Positions 43,598-52,374 of a stretch of DNA of 64,000 nucleotides are shown here, in pieces. The DNA comes from Gammaproteobacteria bacterium (lineage in GTDB: Bacteria; Pseudomonadota; Gammaproteobacteria; Pseudomonadales; Azotimanducaceae): assembly GCA_012269545.1 (NCBI GenBank), contig JAAXKB010000040.1, forward strand, positions 70,341 to 134,340. Reading direction: 5' to 3'. The notes beneath the pieces are model-generated. The model was not told the origin of the DNA. It did no database searches and saw only the letters and a program-made list of their open reading frames with translations. The position numbers and the translations under genes were made by a program. Positions within the stretch are counted from its first letter, which is position 1, and each line of letters starts with the position of its first letter.

Positions 43598-43781
43598 ACA
43601 CGCTGCGGGTCTCCGTGCAAGTTTCGCTTTGGTATACAAACGGGGGCTGCAAATGGATAATCCGAAGCTTTGCGCAACGGTGTGTATGGACCTTTATTGT
43701 TCGCCGCCCCGACCGTCGGCATGGCGAACTCAACCGTACCAGCATCGCGTGATAGCAACTTTCACCAACTTAAGGATCATC

Positions 43782-44720
43782 ATGGGGGATATCGAAAAAC
43801 TGGCGGGATCTGTGGCGTCGCTGCAGGCATCGTTTGAGGAACACCGTTACATTTGCAGCGACGAGATCGCTACAGCGGTGTTTCTTGCCTACCAGCTACG
43901 CAAACCCATTTTGATTGAGGGGCCTCCAGGCGTCGGTAAAACCGAACTTGCAAAAACCGCAGCGGAGATGTTCGCGCTGCCGCTGATTCGTTTGCAGTGC
44001 TACGAGGGTCTGGATGAATCAAAGGCCATCTATGAATGGAAATATGGCAAGCAGCTGCTCTACACCCAGGTGCTAAAAGAGGCCCTGAATGAAGTGCTCG
44101 GCGAAGCCAAGGGCTTCCGCGAGTCCGTGCAGGCGTTGCATAACTTTGGTGACATCTTCTTCTCTGAGGAATTCTTGGAGCCCCGGCCGTTGATGAAGGC
44201 CCTCAAAGAAGAGGATGGCTGTATTTTGCTGATCGACGAGATCGATAAGGCAGACCACGAATTCGAATCACTGTTGCTGGAAATTCTCTCCGACTTCCAA
44301 TTGTCGATTCCGGAAATTGGCACGATCAAGGCAGCATCGGAACCGCCACTGGTGTTCTTGACCTCGAACAATACCCGGGAAATCTCTGACGCCCTCAAGC
44401 GCCGATGCCTGCACCTGTACATTCCGTTCCCAGACGTCGAGATCGAACAGCGCATTATTGGGGCTCGCGTACCGGAGATTCCCCCAGAACTGCAAAAGCA
44501 ATTGGTGGCTTTTATCCACGAACTGCGCAGCCTCGACCTGAAAAAGATGCCTGCCATTTCAGAGACCATCGACTGGGCACGCACCTTAGTGCTGCTCCAT
44601 GCAGAAGCACTCGACCCTCAGTTGGTCAAGGACACATTGAACGTGATCCTGAAATTTCAGGAAGACATCGACAATGTAAAGACCGAAGTGCCCGCGCTAA
44701 CCGCGAAGATCGCCAGCTAG
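43782..44720 (+). CDS. MoxR-type AAA+ ATPase
   Basis: A 312-residue AAA+ ATPase of the MoxR class. Walker A is IEGPPGVGKTEL, at about residues 45-56; Walker B is CILLIDEIDKAD, near 145-156; and VFLTSNNTREISDALKRRCLH provides sensor 1 and the arginine finger. Residues 230-312 form the helical lid. MoxR proteins chaperone or load metal into enzymes together with a VWA partner, which is encoded 9 bases downstream. The ATG at 43782 has TAAGGA upstream; the longer frame to 43629 is not protein-like. Similar pairs (CoxD/CoxE) mature CO dehydrogenase, but no such enzyme is encoded here. Confidence 0.9.
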   Translation: MGDIEKLAGSVASLQASFEEHRYICSDEIATAVFLAYQLRKPILIEGPPGVGKTELAKTAAEMFALPLIRLQCYEGLDESKAIYEWKYGKQLLYTQVLKEALNEVLGEAKGFRESVQALHNFGDIFFSEEFLEPRPLMKALKEEDGCILLIDEIDKADHEFESLLLEILSDFQLSIPEIGTIKAASEPPLVFLTSNNTREISDALKRRCLHLYIPFPDVEIEQRIIGARVPEIPPELQKQLVAFIHELRSLDLKKMPAISETIDWARTLVLLHAEALDPQLVKDTLNVILKFQEDIDNVKTEVPALTAKIAS

Positions 44721-44729
44721 GTTTTGCCC

Positions 44730-46226
44730 ATGGGTATGGACCGCACCATCAGTAACTTCATTCGCGCACTCCGCAACGCTGACGTACGCGTTTCCACCGC
44801 TGAAACACTCGATGCCATCGGCGCCGTCGAGTTGGTGGGTTACAGCGATAAGGAGCACTTAAAGCGTTCTCTGTCGATGGTGCTGCCGAAAACCGCAGAC
44901 GAAAAAGTCACCTTCGACGCCTGTTTCGATCAATTCTTCCGTTTTCAAGACGTGCGCGGTGAAGTCACAAACGACAGCGCAGACAGCACCGAGCAAGACG
45001 GTGAAGAGAGCGGTGAAGGCGGTGACGGTGAAGGCGGCGGCGCTGGCGGTGATCCTCAAACGCAGAACCGCAGCAAGAAAAAGTCCAAATCCAAGGCCAA
45101 AAAGAACAATCTGTACGAAGAGGAAGAAGAGGCGGATCTGGGGCCGGGAGAGGTAACCGACGCCCACTCGCCACTAGGCAAATTGTTGATGGCGAATTCC
45201 CGGGTGGAGCTTGCTCAATCCATGGCTGAGGCCGGTGAGGCGACCAATGTCCGAGAAATCCAGATCTTCACCCAAAAAGGTTTGTACGCAAGACGCATCA
45301 TGGATCATATGGGGCTAGCGGACCTAAACAGGGAAATCAGCGATCTGCGCACGGACACCAGAGTGCCTGCACGCCGCTTGGGCCAACAGCTCAAGCAACG
45401 GCGCGATTTTTTGCGCGAACAGGTCCGAGATTACGTTGAGCAACAATTCATGCTCAATGCCGATGTGTCAGGCAAACGCCTGCGCGAAGAGATGCTGCGT
45501 TCGGTCAAGTTATCCAACGTTGAACACCGCAACTTCCGCCTGATTCAAGAAATGGTCTATAAAATGGCGAAAAAGCTGAGCACCCTGCACAGCAGACGCC
45601 GAAAAATCTTCAAGCGCGGACAGCTCAACGTACCCAAAACCCTGCGCAACAACATGTCTTACGATGGCGCAATTTTTGATCTGTACTGGAAATCGGTAAA
45701 AGTCGATCGTCCTAAGGTGTTCGCCATCTGCGACGTTTCGGGTTCTGTCGCCAATTACGCGCGATTCATGCTGATGTTTTTGTACAGCATGGACGAAGTT
45801 ATGCCCAAGGTGCGCAGCTTTGCTTTTTCTTCCGACCTTGCCGAGGTCACCGAGCTGTTCAATCGCAACAAGCTGGAAGACGCCATCTCGAAAACCCTGC
45901 ACGACTACAGCGGTGGCTCCACCGACTACGGGCAGGCCCTGTTGGATTTTAAGAAACTCTGCTTGGACGACGTCGATAACCGCACCACGATCATTATTTT
46001 GGGTGACGCGCGGAACAACCACGGTGAGGCGCATGCCGAGGTACTGAAAGAACTTTACGACCGCTCCAAGCGTGTTATCTGGCTGAATCCAGAGGCGAAA
46101 CTGGCTTGGAACACCGGCGATTCCGAAATGCGTAAGTACGGGGCGTACTCGCATCAGGTGGAGGAATGCAATTCGCTAATGCACTTAGAGCGCGTGGTCA
46201 GCAATTTATTGAGACAAACAGCCTAA
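44730..46226 (+). CDS. VWA-domain protein, CoxE-like, partner of MoxR
   Basis: A 498-residue cytoplasmic protein. An N-terminal helical part (about 1-75) leads into a low-complexity linker (about 78-140): first acidic and glycine-rich (EESGEGGDGEGGG), then lysine-rich (RSKKKSKSKAKKN), then EEEEEAD. The C-terminal half is a von Willebrand A domain with the metal-binding MIDAS residues in AICDVSGSVANYARFM, SGGSTDYGQALLDF and IIILGDARNNHG. This is the CoxE/DUF58-like layout. The ATG at 44730 was taken; TTG and ATG alternatives lie six bases on either side. It forms an obvious pair with the MoxR gene. Confidence 0.85.
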   Translation: MGMDRTISNFIRALRNADVRVSTAETLDAIGAVELVGYSDKEHLKRSLSMVLPKTADEKVTFDACFDQFFRFQDVRGEVTNDSADSTEQDGEESGEGGDGEGGGAGGDPQTQNRSKKKSKSKAKKNNLYEEEEEADLGPGEVTDAHSPLGKLLMANSRVELAQSMAEAGEATNVREIQIFTQKGLYARRIMDHMGLADLNREISDLRTDTRVPARRLGQQLKQRRDFLREQVRDYVEQQFMLNADVSGKRLREEMLRSVKLSNVEHRNFRLIQEMVYKMAKKLSTLHSRRRKIFKRGQLNVPKTLRNNMSYDGAIFDLYWKSVKVDRPKVFAICDVSGSVANYARFMLMFLYSMDEVMPKVRSFAFSSDLAEVTELFNRNKLEDAISKTLHDYSGGSTDYGQALLDFKKLCLDDVDNRTTIIILGDARNNHGEAHAEVLKELYDRSKRVIWLNPEAKLAWNTGDSEMRKYGAYSHQVEECNSLMHLERVVSNLLRQTA

Positions 46227-46311
46227 TCTGAGCACCTGCCGTATTGGAAAGGTCTCGCTTTTCCGCCAAACTCGTTGAGACTCTTTGCTCTGGATCACGT
46301 TGACTAAGCGC

Positions 46312-47976
46312 ATGTCTCCCAACCGCCAACTGGCTCAATTTTTCCTGCTCGCCTTTGCCGGTGTCGCACTGCTGATGCTCACCCTGCACTACGCGGGCAG
46401 CGCGCTTAGCGGCACCACGTCAGATGTTTCTGCGGTAGACGAAGATGCCAACAGCATTTCCATCATCATTCGTGAAGAACCCCCTCAACTGAACAGCAGT
46501 CGAGCTACGGACAGCATTTCAGGCATGGTGCTGGGACATGTGATGGAGGGCTTGGTTCGCATGGGTCTGGATGACCGACTTGAAGGCGCCGTTGCCGAGC
46601 GCTGGGAAGTGACCCCCACACAGGCCACATTCTGGCTGCGCGAAAACGCCAAGTGGAGTGACGGTCAACCAGTGACGGCCGCAGATTTTATCTTTGCCTG
46701 GCAAACCGCGCTGAAACCCGAAACCGGTTCCCAGTACGCCTTTCTGCTTTTTACTATCCAAAATGCCGAGGCCATCAATCAAGGCGCGCTGCCCGCCAGT
46801 GAGCTTGGCGTCACGGCACCAGACCCGTACACGCTGGTCATCAATCTGGCGCGGCCTGTGCCTTTCTTCGACAAAACATTGGTGTTTCCCACCTTCTTGC
46901 CCATCCGAGAAGACTTTTATAACGCCACCAACGGTCGCTTCGGCGCAGACGCGGATCAACTGCTTTACAACGGCCCATTTCAGATCAGCCAGTGGGTACA
47001 CGGCTCCAGCATGACCTTTGAGCGCAATCCGTACTTTTGGAACCAAGCCGAAATTCATCTGGATACCATTCATGTGCCTTACATCACGTCGGATGCCACT
47101 GCTTCCCTGAATTTTTTCAAGGACGACAAAATCGCAATTACCGGGCTGCAGGCGGAAAACCTTATTGAGGCCATGCGCATGGGATGGCAAATTCATCAGC
47201 ATCGCGACGGCACCGTCTTCTATCTCGAATTCAATCATCGACAGGGCCGCCCTACAGACAACCTCAATCTCCGTCGCGCCCTGCAGCTGGCCCTCGATAT
47301 GGACGAAATGGTCTACAAGGTGACCAAGCTGCCCGGCTACGAACCCGGCGTGTCTCTGTTCCCCGGTTGGCTGATGGGCGAAGAACGACTGCTACGCCAA
47401 GAATACCCGCCGCAAAAAATCACTCCCGATGCATCGCTGGCGAAACAGCATCTTAAGCAAGCACTACAAGAGCTAGGCCTCAGCGAACCACCCTCTCTTG
47501 TCCTTCTCGCGGGCGACAACCCAATTTCCAACGTGCAATCCGAGTGGGTGCAACAAACCCTGAAAACAAAGTTAGGTATCAGCGTGAAAATCGACAAGCA
47601 GATTTTCAAACAACGGCTAGCGAAAATGACCTCCGGCGATTTCGATCTAGTGCTGGCCGGCTGGGGACCCGATTACAACGACCCGCTGACCTTTGGTGAT
47701 CTGTTTGCGTCGTGGAACAAAAACAATCGCGGTCAGTACAACAGCCCAGAACTGGATGCCCTGATCGACATCGCCCAAAGCCGGCTGCAGCCGGCGGCGC
47801 GCATGCGCGCCTTCGGCGATATCCAACAGCATCTGATCGATCAGGCCGTCGTGTTGCCGATGTATGAGCGGGGGGTTACCTACGTGGTCGACCCGCGAGT
47901 CAGACAGCTCAAGCGCAGAGTTATCGGTCCTGACCCTGACCTCAGCCGCGCCTACATCGACGTCAGTGGCGAGTAA
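46312..47976 (+). CDS. oppA: Peptide ABC transporter substrate-binding protein (OppA type)
   Basis: A 554-residue family 5 extracellular solute-binding protein. The N-terminus has basic residues and then one hydrophobic helix (LAQFFLLAFAGVALLMLTLHYAG), which looks like an uncleaved anchor rather than a standard signal peptide. The mature domain starts SISIIIREEPPQLNSSRATD, with VAERWEVTPTQATFWLREN and WSDGQPVTAADFIFAWQ, all typical of OppA/MppA. The C-terminal lobe has DLVLAGWGPDYNDPLTFGDLF. It would bind oligopeptides outside the inner membrane. TTG codons at 46285 and 46300 are other possible starts. The permease gene follows by 32 bases. Confidence 0.9.
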   Translation: MSPNRQLAQFFLLAFAGVALLMLTLHYAGSALSGTTSDVSAVDEDANSISIIIREEPPQLNSSRATDSISGMVLGHVMEGLVRMGLDDRLEGAVAERWEVTPTQATFWLRENAKWSDGQPVTAADFIFAWQTALKPETGSQYAFLLFTIQNAEAINQGALPASELGVTAPDPYTLVINLARPVPFFDKTLVFPTFLPIREDFYNATNGRFGADADQLLYNGPFQISQWVHGSSMTFERNPYFWNQAEIHLDTIHVPYITSDATASLNFFKDDKIAITGLQAENLIEAMRMGWQIHQHRDGTVFYLEFNHRQGRPTDNLNLRRALQLALDMDEMVYKVTKLPGYEPGVSLFPGWLMGEERLLRQEYPPQKITPDASLAKQHLKQALQELGLSEPPSLVLLAGDNPISNVQSEWVQQTLKTKLGISVKIDKQIFKQRLAKMTSGDFDLVLAGWGPDYNDPLTFGDLFASWNKNNRGQYNSPELDALIDIAQSRLQPAARMRAFGDIQQHLIDQAVVLPMYERGVTYVVDPRVRQLKRRVIGPDPDLSRAYIDVSGE

Positions 47977-48008: not shown

Positions 48009-48944
48009 ATGCTGAGCTATTTTGGCAAACGCCTGCTGCTTGGCTTGGTGACCATCTGGTTTATCGCCAGCGCCACGTTTTTTGGCATGCACGCCGTGCC
48101 CGGAGACCCCTTAGCCGGCGACAAGGCCATGACCCCGCAAATACGCGCGAACCTCGAAGCGAAGTATGGGCTGGACCAACCGCTGGGAACTCAGTATTTG
48201 ATTTATCTGGGCAACATCGCCCGCGGCGACTTTGGCATTTCCTACACCCAAGAAAACCGTCGGGTCAACGACATCATTCGTGAACACTTCCCCATTTCCG
48301 CCACGCTAGGCATTTTGGCTATCGTCTTTGCGGGTCTGGGCGGCGTACTTTGGGGGGCGCTCACCGCTTTGTACCGCAACCGATGGCCCGATGTGGTCAT
48401 CATGTTGGCAGTAATTTTAGGCATATCGGTGCCCAGCTTTGTGGTCGCCGCGATCAGTCAATGGTCCTTGGTCGGTCTTAATCTGGCTGCGGGCACGACG
48501 ATATTGCCCATCGGCGGTTGGGGCAGTGTATGGCATATGCTGGTGCCCGCCTTGGTACTGGGCTTGTCCACCATGGCTTACCTAACCCGCTTAATGCGAT
48601 CGTCGATGCTAGAGGTTGTCGGCACTGACTACATTCGCACGGCCAAGGCCAAGGGCCTACCGCCAACGCAGATTTTCAGTCGCCATCAGCTACGCAACGC
48701 CATCCTGCCGGTCATTACTGTGCTAGGGCCGGCTATCGCTGGTATTACGACTGGCGGTTTCGTTGTAGAGATCGTGTTTGCCATACCCGGCTTGGGCCGC
48801 TATTTCGTGCAGGCCATCCAGCAATTGGACTACACGGTAATCATGGGTACTACGGTCTTTTATGGTGCGTTTTTGGTCTTTATGGTCATTTTGGTGGATC
48901 TTTTCTACGGGCTGATTGATCCGCGGGTAAGGGTAGACCAATGA
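48009..48944 (+). CDS. oppB: Oligopeptide ABC transporter permease OppB
   Basis: A 311-residue inner-membrane permease with six helices. Its N-terminal helix (LLLGLVTIWFIASATFFGMH) precedes PGDPLAGDKAMTPQIRANLEAKYGLDQP, the usual OppB periplasmic loop. The EAA loop is YIRTAKAKGLPPTQIFSRHQ, followed by RNAILPVITVLGPAIAGITTGGFVVEIVFAIPGLG. Together with OppC it makes the peptide channel. The stop overlaps the oppC ATG (ATGA), so the two are translated in step. Confidence 0.93.
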   Translation: MLSYFGKRLLLGLVTIWFIASATFFGMHAVPGDPLAGDKAMTPQIRANLEAKYGLDQPLGTQYLIYLGNIARGDFGISYTQENRRVNDIIREHFPISATLGILAIVFAGLGGVLWGALTALYRNRWPDVVIMLAVILGISVPSFVVAAISQWSLVGLNLAAGTTILPIGGWGSVWHMLVPALVLGLSTMAYLTRLMRSSMLEVVGTDYIRTAKAKGLPPTQIFSRHQLRNAILPVITVLGPAIAGITTGGFVVEIVFAIPGLGRYFVQAIQQLDYTVIMGTTVFYGAFLVFMVILVDLFYGLIDPRVRVDQ

Positions 48945-50314
48945 GTTCCGCGAAGCTGAGCCCCGCCGACTTTCAGCCTCTGGTTTCAAATGGGATCGTG
49001 CAACAAATCAGCCGGCCGTCGCTGTCCTACTGGGCCGACGCTTGGCTACGCTTGCGCAAGAATCCAAGAGCCATGGCATCCTTGGGCTTAATCGCCTTCC
49101 TGCTGGCCTTTGTCAGCCTCGGCCCGGCTCTGTGGCGAATCGACCCGTCAGCCCAAGATCTGGACCAAATCGGCATCGCTCCCGGCGCAGACCGCACCGT
49201 GACCCTTGCAGCGCCTTTCGAACCTTGGAATCCGCAGCAACAACCTGCCACTCTGTCTGATAACTCCTTGGGCTTTACCCTTGCTCTGCCAGCCAGTACT
49301 CAGGCGGTCCGTTTGGCCTGGGCAGCCACAGGTGCGACGCGCCACCGGCTGTATCGCAATGTGTTCGACCCTGAGACAACCGGCAGCCTAGGTTTGCCTC
49401 TCGTGGAGCGGGATCAACCTTGGTTTGAGGACCGCCTCGATTTGCAGTCTGGCACCTACTACTACACCCTCGTGCCGCTCACTGCGGACGGCGTGGAGAC
49501 CAGTGGCGCGGTGACTCTCGCGGTTGACGTCATTCGCGTCATTTCCATCGCTCAAGCTCGGGAGCGTGGCCTCATCACTGCAGACGAGAACGTGCAACTG
49601 GGACAACGCCTTAAGCTTGCCTGGCACCCGCTGGGCACAGATTACCTAGGCCGAGACATGCTGGCTCGACTGATGTACGGCGGTCAGGTCTCTCTATTCA
49701 TCGGCATTTTTGCGCCGCTGGCCTTTGTTCTTCTGGGCGTCATTTACGGCAGCGTATCTGGGTTTCTCGGCGGCGCTGCAGACCAAGCGATGATGCGCTT
49801 CGCTGACTTCGTCGTGGCACTGCCCTTTCTGCTCTTTATGATCCTATTCAAAGTCATTTTTGGCATCGGTCCCGGCGAAAGCGGCATCTGGCCCATGCTG
49901 GTGGCCATGATCATTTTGCTGTGGCCCGCACCGGCTCGTTTGGTCCGCGGCCAGATTTTGCAGATCCGTGAAGAGGGCTACGTCAGCGCATCTCGACTAC
50001 TCGGCGGCACCACCGCGTATGTGGTGGGTCGCCATATGCTCCCCAACACCATGGGCGTCATACTAGTCACCATAACCTTTCAGGTACCAAGTGCCATTTT
50101 TACCGAAGCATTCCTTTCCTTTATCGGTATGGGTGTGGCTCCACCGACACCCTCGTGGGGGGCTATGTGTAATGAAGGCATAAAATCAATGCTGACGCGG
50201 CCTCACGAACTGATGTTTCCAGCCTTGCTGATCAGTATCACGGTATTGGCTTTCAATCTGCTTGGTGACGGGCTGCGCGATGCATTGGATGCGCGTATGC
50301 GAGGAGTTGAGTAG
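48941..50314 (+). CDS. oppC: Oligopeptide ABC transporter permease OppC with an Fn3-like insertion
   Basis: A 457-residue permease, about 150 residues longer than the family norm near 300. Helix 1 lies at about 46-65. Normally HPLGTDYLGRDML follows within 40-50 residues; here it is at about 229. The extra part (about 95-200) is predicted periplasmic and shows the strand pattern of a fibronectin type III domain: VRLAWAATGATRHRLYRN, then WFEDRLDLQSGTYYYTLVPL and GVETSGAVTLAVDV. The remaining permease core is intact, with helices after 240, the EAA loop (YVSASRLLGGTTAYVVGRHML) and SFIGMGVAPPTPSWG. The insertion may help dock the peptide-binding protein or bind cell wall. Confidence 0.9.
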   Translation: MSSAKLSPADFQPLVSNGIVQQISRPSLSYWADAWLRLRKNPRAMASLGLIAFLLAFVSLGPALWRIDPSAQDLDQIGIAPGADRTVTLAAPFEPWNPQQQPATLSDNSLGFTLALPASTQAVRLAWAATGATRHRLYRNVFDPETTGSLGLPLVERDQPWFEDRLDLQSGTYYYTLVPLTADGVETSGAVTLAVDVIRVISIAQARERGLITADENVQLGQRLKLAWHPLGTDYLGRDMLARLMYGGQVSLFIGIFAPLAFVLLGVIYGSVSGFLGGAADQAMMRFADFVVALPFLLFMILFKVIFGIGPGESGIWPMLVAMIILLWPAPARLVRGQILQIREEGYVSASRLLGGTTAYVVGRHMLPNTMGVILVTITFQVPSAIFTEAFLSFIGMGVAPPTPSWGAMCNEGIKSMLTRPHELMFPALLISITVLAFNLLGDGLRDALDARMRGVE

Positions 50315-50362: not shown

Positions 50363-51400
50363 ATGCCTGAGCCCTTACTCAAGGTCGACAATCTGCACGT
50401 GGATTTTCAAACCTATGGCGGAGTCGTTCAAGCTGTGCGGGGCGTCAGCTTTGACGTGCATGCAGGCCAAACGCTTGCCATCGTCGGTGAGTCCGGTTGT
50501 GGCAAATCGGTCACTGTACAAAGTTTGATGGGCCTCATCCCGACGCCTCCGGGTCGCATTCACCAAGGCAGCGCGACGCTTCGGGGCAACGACATTCTGA
50601 CCTCCAAACTGATCAATAACCGCGACATTCGCGGCCGCGAGATCAGTATGATCTTTCAAGACCCGATGACATCACTCAACCCAACGATGAACATTGGTAG
50701 CCAAATTGCCGAAACCTTGGAGGTCCATCGGGGTTACAGCAAAACTCAGGCCTTCTCCCGCGCCATCGAATTGCTGGAAATGAGCAAAATTCCGGAAGCA
50801 GCGAAACGAGCGAAGCAATACCCTTTTGAATTTTCTGGCGGCATGCTGCAGCGAGCCATGATCGCTATGGCCATTGCTTGTGAACCGGCGATTTTGATCG
50901 CCGATGAACCCACCACCGCCTTGGACGTCACGATTCAGGCGCAAATTCTCGATCTGTTGAGCGACCTGCAGCGTGAAACCGGTATGGCCACCATTTTAAT
51001 TACCCACGACTTGGGGGTGGTTGCGCGCATGGCCGATGAGGTGCTGGTGATGTACGCCGGCGAAGTAGTGGAAAAAGGCAATGTAGACGATATTTTTTAT
51101 CGCTCCGGTCACCCCTATACCCACGGCCTGCGTCTGGCAATGCCATCGAACAGTCGCGAAAGTATTGGTGGCGACGAACGGACCTTGGTATCTATTGACG
51201 GATCTCCGCCGGATTTATTCGCGCCGCCCCAAGGCTGCGCTTATCACCCCCGCTGCCCCTACGCCATGAGGGTATGCGCAGAGCAAGCGCCCCTAATCCA
51301 TGAGCTTGGTGCTGGCCACCATACCCAGTGTTGGCTCCACCACGAACTGGCCGAAAAACCGCCCGCGGGCCTGATGACCAAGACGGAGGCGGGCGAATGA
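50363..51400 (+). CDS. oppD: Oligopeptide ABC transporter ATP-binding protein OppD
   Basis: A 345-residue ABC ATPase of the oligopeptide/dipeptide type. Walker A is VGESGCGKS at about residues 42-50, the Q-loop IFQDPMTSLNPTM, signature FSGGMLQRAMIAMA and Walker B ILIADEPTTALDVTIQAQ. The C-terminal extension carries the cysteine cluster GCAYHPRCPYAMRVC, the usual [4Fe-4S]-like ligand set of OppD and DppD. The gene starts 48 bases after oppC. Its stop overlaps the oppF ATG (ATGA). Confidence 0.93.
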   Translation: MPEPLLKVDNLHVDFQTYGGVVQAVRGVSFDVHAGQTLAIVGESGCGKSVTVQSLMGLIPTPPGRIHQGSATLRGNDILTSKLINNRDIRGREISMIFQDPMTSLNPTMNIGSQIAETLEVHRGYSKTQAFSRAIELLEMSKIPEAAKRAKQYPFEFSGGMLQRAMIAMAIACEPAILIADEPTTALDVTIQAQILDLLSDLQRETGMATILITHDLGVVARMADEVLVMYAGEVVEKGNVDDIFYRSGHPYTHGLRLAMPSNSRESIGGDERTLVSIDGSPPDLFAPPQGCAYHPRCPYAMRVCAEQAPLIHELGAGHHTQCWLHHELAEKPPAGLMTKTEAGE

Positions 51401-52374
51401 AACCCTTGGTTGAAATCACAAACCTCGTAAAATACTTCGACATCGGCAGCAACCAACGCGTACACGCGGTCGATGATGTCAGTTTTTCGATATACCCCAA
51501 AGAAGTCGTTGGCTTGGTTGGGGAAAGCGGCTCGGGCAAATCCACTTTGGGCAAAACCCTGCTGGGTCTTCACGATAAAACCAGCGGCAGCATCTCCTTT
51601 GCGGGCAAACAGTTACCCCAGCGGTATCAGGCCAAGGACTTTCGTGCCATGGCACCAAAAATGCAGATGATTTTTCAGGACCCGTATTCGTCGTTGAATC
51701 CCCGCATGACCGTGGGAGAAATCATCGCGGAAGGTCTCCGCCTGCAGCCAGAACTGAGCACCAGCGACGTGCAAGAGCGCGTGTTGCATTGGTTATCCTT
51801 GGTGGGGTTAAGCCCAGTTCACCAATCGCGTTACCCCCATGAGTTTTCCGGCGGGCAACGACAGCGCATAGGCATTGCCAGAGCACTTATTTTGCAACCC
51901 GAATTCGTGGTCTGCGACGAGCCAATCTCCGCGCTCGACGTGTCGGTGCAGGCGCAGGTCGTCAATCTTTTGGGGGAGCTAACGCAAGATCTAGGACTCA
52001 CGCTGTTATTTATCGCGCACGACCTCTCCATGGTCCGGTATATCAGTGACCGCATGGCGGTCATGTATCTAGGCGCCTTGGTGGAGGTGGGCTCATCCTC
52101 GGAAGTATTTTTCGATCCCAAACACCCTTATACCGAAACGCTGATTGCCTCCAATCCGGAAGCCGACCCGGAACACGAACGGCGGCGCCCATCAACGACC
52201 ATACAGGGGGAAATTCCTTCTCCGGTAAATGTGCCGGCGGGCTGTCGCTTTGCCAACCGCTGCCCTCAGGCCATGGCGCATTGCAGCAGCATCACCCCCC
52301 CACTCAAACCCGTATCGTCGGAGCCGCAGGCCGCCAAAACACCTCGACTGGTTGCCTGCCATCTCTACGACTGA
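51397..52374 (+). CDS. oppF: Oligopeptide ABC transporter ATP-binding protein OppF
   Basis: A 325-residue partner ATPase of OppD. Walker A is VGESGSGKSTLGKTLLGL, the Q-loop IFQDPYSSLNPRMTV, signature FSGGQRQRIGIARAL, and Walker B FVVCDEPISALDVSVQAQ. The C-terminal OppF extension has PVNVPAGCRFANRCPQAMAHC, again a cysteine cluster. The ATG at 51397 overlaps the oppD stop. With oppA-D it completes a five-gene import operon. No plus-strand terminator is visible after it; the hairpin at 52399-52426 is oriented for the opposite gene. Confidence 0.93.
   Translation: MKPLVEITNLVKYFDIGSNQRVHAVDDVSFSIYPKEVVGLVGESGSGKSTLGKTLLGLHDKTSGSISFAGKQLPQRYQAKDFRAMAPKMQMIFQDPYSSLNPRMTVGEIIAEGLRLQPELSTSDVQERVLHWLSLVGLSPVHQSRYPHEFSGGQRQRIGIARALILQPEFVVCDEPISALDVSVQAQVVNLLGELTQDLGLTLLFIAHDLSMVRYISDRMAVMYLGALVEVGSSSEVFFDPKHPYTETLIASNPEADPEHERRRPSTTIQGEIPSPVNVPAGCRFANRCPQAMAHCSSITPPLKPVSSEPQAAKTPRLVACHLYD

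Follow-up and report, generated by a model that had tools for sequence, protein, structure and literature searches.

A predicted Fn3-like module in the first periplasmic loop of an OppC oligopeptide permease

Why should the OppC subunit of an oligopeptide importer be much longer than its well-studied counterparts, and what could the extra part do? These questions were raised by an opp operon in the window, the whole 64-kb stretch of DNA that was analyzed. The operon is complete, with the genes in the order oppABCDF and all of them on the + strand. Its features are as follows.

46285 to 47976, + strand: oppA, substrate-binding protein (Pfam SBP_bac_5), with a hydrophobic N-terminal helix read by eye
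48009 to 48944, + strand: oppB, permease subunit B (Pfam), with the DppB-scoop-aligned stretch retained
48096 to 48179, + strand: stretch of OppB aligned with the DppB scoop (residues about 30 to 57), present
48941 to 50314, + strand: oppC, oligopeptide permease subunit C of 457 amino acids (Pfam OppC_N and BPD_transp_1)
49025 to 49171, + strand: OppC_N match (residues 29 to 77), comprising TM1 and the beginning of the first periplasmic loop (Pfam; alignment with 8wd9_C)
49190 to 49621, + strand: insertion of 144 residues (84 to 227) relative to Mycobacterium tuberculosis DppC (alignment; junction of plain homologues)
49262 to 49540, + strand: predicted Fn3-like beta-sandwich, OppC residues 108 to 200 (insert model; VIA-align)
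49736 to 50302, + strand: BPD_transp_1 transport core, residues 266 to 454 (Pfam)
50363 to 51400, + strand: oppD, ATPase subunit (Pfam)
51397 to 52374, + strand: oppF, ATPase subunit; the listed open reading frame begins at 51328, the Met at 51397 being the likelier start

The later start of oppF was preferred because of its overlap with oppD and after inspection by eye. Directly upstream of oppA (43629 to 46226 of the window) are two genes, one for a MoxR-type ATPase and one for a CoxE-like VWA protein. At the level of sequence, the putative function of OppABCDF as an Opp-type peptide importer is strongly supported. OppC matched the Pfam families OppC_N (48.9 bits; cut-off, 23.9) and BPD_transp_1 (109.2 bits; cut-off, 26.4), and no further Pfam family, fn3 included, was found in it at E values of up to 10. 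Its best NCBIfam match was Opp3C, with 284 bits versus a cut-off of 450. For all 21 NCBIfam families listed, it remained below the cut-off, and no named equivalog was assigned. In the window's genome, OppC was the sole match of its own query at an E value of 0.001 or less.

Place and size of the insertion in OppC

The window's OppC has 457 residues, compared with 302 for Escherichia coli OppC (8z21_B) and 287 for M. tuberculosis DppC (8wd9_C). In the alignment with 8wd9_C, OppC residues 29 to 83 correspond to residues 6 to 60 of the chain, and residues 228 to 454 correspond to residues 61 to 283. The parts matched with 8z21_B were residues 26 to 74 and 228 to 452. The original prediction had described OppC as about 150 residues overlong, with the extra part between TM1 and the HPLGTDYLGRDML segment. 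The measured excess against 8wd9_C was 144 residues, and the same alignment confirmed its position. The insertion site lies in the first periplasmic loop, between the segments APPS and H-x-x-GTD-x-x-GRD. Homologues without the insert, referred to as plain, read like APPS..H-x-x-GTD-x-x-GRD at this junction, with few or no residues in between. The limits of the insertion were taken from the 8z21_B and 8wd9_C alignments and from the plain homologues, because a mafft alignment with E. coli OppC, DppC, and YejE misplaced the N-terminal parts.

In E. coli OppC, the first loop comprises 43 residues on the periplasmic side, and its doubling causes the nascent chain to recruit SecA (PMC9192764). As estimated by aligning the GTD motif, the loop of the window's OppC comprises about 185 residues versus 43 in E. 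coli, and this OppC should therefore be a SecA client.

Shorter, different-looking insertions were noticed at the same site in Ciceribacter (L138) and Pseudochrobactrum (L139), both on alphaproteobacterial plasmids, and in L143 of genome G012. The loop therefore seems to be tolerant of insertions. In the core tree described below, the cores of these three proteins fall outside the insert-bearing group. A match on a Skermanella plasmid was dropped, as two neighboring permease genes had been joined into one match.

Predicted fold and kinship with Fn3 domains

An AlphaFold model of the insert, based on 74 aligned inserts, reached a mean pLDDT of 87.8. It contains six strands of at least three residues between insert residues 58 and 133. 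The full-length OppC model was of lower quality (mean pLDDT, 71.7; pTM, 0.52), with a poor membrane part. It was used only for residues 81 to 220, with block means of 81 to 92, and not for packing on the membrane part. Foldseek returned an Fn3 domain as the top match in the PDB at an E value of 1.9e-3; none of the 1,595 matches was at or below 0.001. VIA-align 2, run on 996 chains, gave a Z score of at least 8 for 199 of them, the best reaching 9.8 with an rmsd of 2.2 over 87 aligned residues. Among the 50 VIA-align matches listed, most bear the names of Fn3 domains or of binders derived from Fn3, and a few have uninformative titles (phage baseplate, glucanase, and receptor kinases). OppC residues 108 to 200 are thus predicted with good confidence to form an Fn3-type beta-sandwich, nearly the same span (49262 to 49540) as that originally proposed for the domain (49220 to 49540). 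The insert did not turn out to be a disordered loop common to ordinary permeases: ordinary OppC and DppC have few or no residues at this place, and 143 of the 163 modeled residues have a pLDDT of 70 or more.

Kinship with Fn3 was less evident from direct Pfam scans, for which the gathering cut-off of PF00041 (fn3) is 25 bits. One of 28 inserts matched fn3, at an E value of 0.16, and none reached the cut-off. Two of ten divergent inserts matched it at E values of 0.026 and 0.078 (15.2 and 13.6 bits), again with none at the cut-off. Since no scanned insert reached this value, the module is named Fn3-like and is not filed under PF00041. In the reciprocal direction, the insert profile matched 16 of 369 genomes of the class at an E value of 0.001 or less, the window's own included. 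The 15 other genomes gave weak partial matches (E value of 4.8e-6 or worse), at 25 places besides the window, several of them in frames of 1,000 to 4,200 amino acids. When ten of these 25 places (the nine best and the thirteenth) were given to Pfam, PF00041 was the best family for nine, with four above the cut-off; the best-scoring one (L112) matched no Pfam family. A Trp in strand B and a Tyr in strand F are hallmarks of Fn3 domains. Both were found in all 74 rows of the insert alignment (W127 and Y175), in which R139, G151, P153, and D164 are likewise invariant and position 168 is Leu in 72 rows.

The first hits of the insert profile in the PDB were nine protocadherin-15 sequences (best E value, 0.0011), ahead of the Fn3-like 3mpc_A (E value, 0.31). 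This ranking favors a beta-sandwich of a general kind over Fn3, and the protocadherin-15 match was not accepted as kinship. The same applies to three chlorophyll-binding matches obtained in a PDB search with a single insert sequence, which were at chance level. Although the protocadherin-15 ranking and the Pfam cut-off missed by every scanned insert would suit another beta-sandwich that is unrelated to Fn3 (for instance, cadherin- or Ig-like), we consider this improbable in view of the nine of ten profile matches that Pfam calls fn3, the names of most of the 50 listed VIA-align matches, and the Trp and Tyr conserved in every row. Overall, an Fn3-like module is supported by the confident model, the structure matches, and the reciprocal profile matches, although none of the scanned inserts was recognized by the Pfam fn3 family at its cut-off.

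Distribution and origin of the insert

In a scan of 84,980 species genomes, relatives of the insert were encoded at 143 loci, a lower bound given that the scan relied on two short peptide patterns. The best 80 of the 143 were kept. Their titles all refer to gammaproteobacteria, Pseudomonadales, or unspecified proteobacteria, and 79 of these 80 loci are labeled as metagenome-assembled, the exception being Pseudohongiella nitratireducens (L087). The alignments comprise 73 of the best 80 loci and the window, giving 74 rows. Omitted were L031 and L079, in which the start motif was not found; L034 and L086, cut by contig ends; L060 and L078, with unknown residues; and L105, with a varied junction motif. 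Identity to the window's insert in this alignment ranges from 39 to 82%. The relatives in 80 loci of other genomes, the identities in this alignment, and the six invariant residues mean that the insert is not a product of chance or an assembly artifact.

Applied to 390 genomes of the order, the insert profile matched 71. Judged by E value (2e-10 or better) and coverage, 63 of these were taken as insert-bearing OppC, distributed over 14 families, and the remaining eight were weaker matches elsewhere (4e-8 or worse). Among 398 genomes of the phylum, searched at an E value of 1e-6, matches were confined to the window's own genome and four genomes of family f244, which belongs to another class; all four are insert-bearing OppC. 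The insert is therefore found in no fewer than 14 families within the order and in one family belonging to a different class. In one family (f205; L177 to L181), the insert has fewer residues and has diverged further (profile E values of 2e-10 to 1e-21); the core identity to the window is 58 to 63%, and the N-terminal part of OppC has also diverged. In L185 (genome G700, one of the 63), stop codons interrupt an insert-bearing oppC beside oppA and oppB relatives, representing a broken copy or an assembly error.

The gene neighborhood was compared for the best 80 of the 143 loci, some of which are on short contigs. Relatives of OppA, OppB, OppD, and OppF were found near insert-bearing oppC in 78, 79, 74, and 74 of the 80 loci, respectively, with six of the 74 OppF matches being cross-hits on OppD. 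CoxE relatives were present in 50 and MoxR relatives in 41. One f244 genome (G789; L222) carries oppBCDF with an insert-bearing oppC and no adjacent oppA. The OppA relative of this family is on a separate contig in three of the four genomes, G789 included, and about 5 kb upstream in G804.

To avoid selection by the insert, 293 genomes of the order were searched with the transport core alone at an E value of 1e-50. This search yielded 136 places in 133 genomes. Fifty of these places show 58 to 100% core identity; all 50 are in frames of at least 441 amino acids, long enough for the insert, and each comes from a genome in which the insert profile had a match as well. The other 86 places have 48% identity or less and are mostly of ordinary length, with 80 in frames of 344 amino acids or less and six in longer ones. 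By this survey, the insertion is not a common loop of ordinary OppC but is retained in close relatives. Loss of the insert was not seen among the 50 close core matches; in one further copy (G700), the gene is broken as a whole.

In a core tree built without the insert, 58 insert-bearing rows and 35 plain rows were split at one branch with support of 100/100. A second core tree of 42 insert-bearing and 14 plain rows, with f244 included, displayed the same single-branch split and placed f244 inside the insert-bearing group, beside families f16, f9, and f209, with moderate support (87/82); its bootstrap was nearly but not fully settled. Rows were labeled beforehand in these trees, several plain rows are long-branched, and a long stem leads to the insert-bearing group. 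Separation of cores with and without the insert by one branch fits a single gain followed by mainly vertical descent, with perhaps one transfer to f244.

Possible role of the module and comparison with known systems

Of the contacts that peptide permeases make with their binding proteins, a short scoop motif is the best known. In the window, the first periplasmic stretch of OppB can be aligned with those of E. coli OppB and DppB, with Asp-Lys at the position of the two charged residues E41 and R42 of the DppB scoop. In DppB, the scoop inserts into the cleft of DppA (PMC12136057). Because OppB retains this stretch, the idea that the module replaces a lost scoop was ruled out, and a second contact is not required on that ground. 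A precedent for a larger contact is MalF-P2 (MalF residues 91 to 271), which contains beta-sheets and contacts MalE in the maltose importer (PMC3150292).

Our best guess is that the Fn3-like module of OppC, gained once, would act as a periplasmic cradle for OppA in the manner of MalF-P2, with export of this OppC depending on SecA. Taken as a whole, this explanation is tentative, at slightly less than an even chance. On the model of E. coli Dpp (PMC12136057), the module would be positioned in the periplasm near the mouth of the channel, on the side that receives OppA. There it could offer OppA a second contact surface next to the OppB scoop motif and would steady or orient it during peptide hand-over, comparable to the contact of MalF-P2 with MalE. 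The longer first loop would make SecA necessary for export during synthesis.

Partial distance correlations calculated for 71 taxa were 0.34 between insert and OppA (0.23 on ranks), 0.21 (0.23) between insert and OppB, and 0.15 (0.17) between insert and core, so that among the Opp parts OppA had the highest or an equal value with the insert. The corresponding value for OppA and OppB, a known kind of contact, was 0.45 (0.46 on ranks). In the 42 taxa with CoxE, the OppA-insert value of 0.34 (0.25 on ranks) was matched by the control pair OppA and CoxE, for which no contact is known (0.34; 0.26 on ranks), and insert and CoxE were uncorrelated (-0.10; -0.04 on ranks). Given the signal of this control, the correlation of insert and OppA was not taken as weighty support for the cradle. 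OppF was excluded from this second run, as some of its matches were cross-hits on OppD. Mean pairwise identity was 49% for the insert, the least conserved part, 60% for OppA, and 83% for the OppC core.

The OppA cradle is placed ahead of two other readings. The module might instead bind a target other than OppA, such as peptidoglycan, a periplasmic or outer-membrane protein, or a peptidase, and thereby site the importer near a source of peptides. In the secreted proteins of bacteria, Fn3 domains often serve for binding or as spacers, which would suit this reading, as does the lack of a clear OppA-specific correlation. We nevertheless regard it as unlikely: no conserved partner gene was identified around insert-bearing oppC, the frequent MoxR and CoxE are not known envelope partners and are missing from many loci within the stretch covered, and the insert does not covary with CoxE. 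Slightly less likely still is a passenger role, in which a stable spacer entered an insertion-tolerant loop a single time and has been kept because losing it is neutral or hard. The different, shorter insertions of L138, L139, and L143 at the same site agree with such a history, and so do the faster evolution of the insert relative to the core and its reduced, divergent form in f205. Conversely, the six residues invariant in 74 of 74 rows and the retention of the insert in all 50 close core matches suggest that the fold is under selection; in the further copy G700, the whole gene is broken.

The original prediction had also presented a seemingly uncleaved anchor of OppA as a companion of the modified importer. 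The N-termini of OppA were inspected by eye for 70 of the 80 loci, with start codons being uncertain and the L048 row incomplete. In many near relatives (for example, L045, L087, and L232, the L087 row of the N-terminus listing being a different protein), 15 to 40 polar, often acidic residues precede a hydrophobic helix, after which there is no obvious Ala-x-Ala or lipobox. Such an N-terminus looks like a signal anchor, and in these Gram-negative relatives the binding protein may be tethered to the membrane. The window's OppA (N-terminus, 46285 to 46440) and its closest relatives have a shorter part before the helix, and for this reason their signal may be cleaved. In the remoter insert-bearing lineages f205, f211, f18, f212, f14, f22, and f244, and likewise in G598 from the window's own family, the OppA signal looks cleavable or lipoprotein-like. 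The OppA partners of plain OppC have mostly ordinary signals. As a general rule, the association of an OppA anchor with the Fn3-like domain is thus contradicted by the remoter lineages. Anchors in near relatives and ordinary signals in remoter ones make the two traits separable, and the anchor probably arose later than the insert.

An extension of the OppA cradle, which we regard as speculative and rather unlikely, is that OppA would be held from two sides, by the OppB scoop and the Fn3-like cradle of OppC, with later tethering of OppA in one subclade giving a semi-permanent receptor-transporter complex. If true, this arrangement would contrast with that of E. coli, in which OppA is soluble.

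MalF-P2, which has an Ig-like fold and lies between TM3 and TM4, already provides an example of a large folded periplasmic loop in an ABC permease. The OppC insert resembles it as a large folded, beta-containing periplasmic loop of an importer permease and differs from it in belonging to another permease subunit and another loop. No Fn3 domain in an ABC permease or in OppC was found in the open-licence literature, and the Fn3-like module in OppC appears new. In current families, the insert is without a Pfam assignment, and the window's OppC lies under the cut-offs of the 21 listed NCBIfam families. With the multidomain bacterial Fn3 proteins of PF00041, the module shares the fold and the reciprocal profile matches; unlike those domains, it sits in a membrane permease between two helices and scores below the Pfam cut-off. 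The insertions of L138, L139, and L143 are likewise extra residues before GTD-x-x-GRD but are shorter and lack the Fn3-like residue pattern by eye.

The closest comparison is with the OppABCDF and DppABCDF importers of E. coli (8z21 and 8z1v) and M. tuberculosis (8wd9 and 8j5q), which have the same operon parts and the OppB scoop stretch. The core can be aligned with E. coli OppC over about 225 residues (E value, 3.2e-54), whereas OppC and DppC of these two species (287 to 302 amino acids) are without the 144-residue insertion. A conserved folded module that OppC apparently gained once and kept across many families offers a natural case for studying how contacts arise in importers, and as a removable part it makes it possible to test whether OppA diffuses or is held in place. 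The first loop of E. coli OppC has been doubled by engineering (PMC9192764), and the long loop of the window's OppC is a natural counterpart of that construct.
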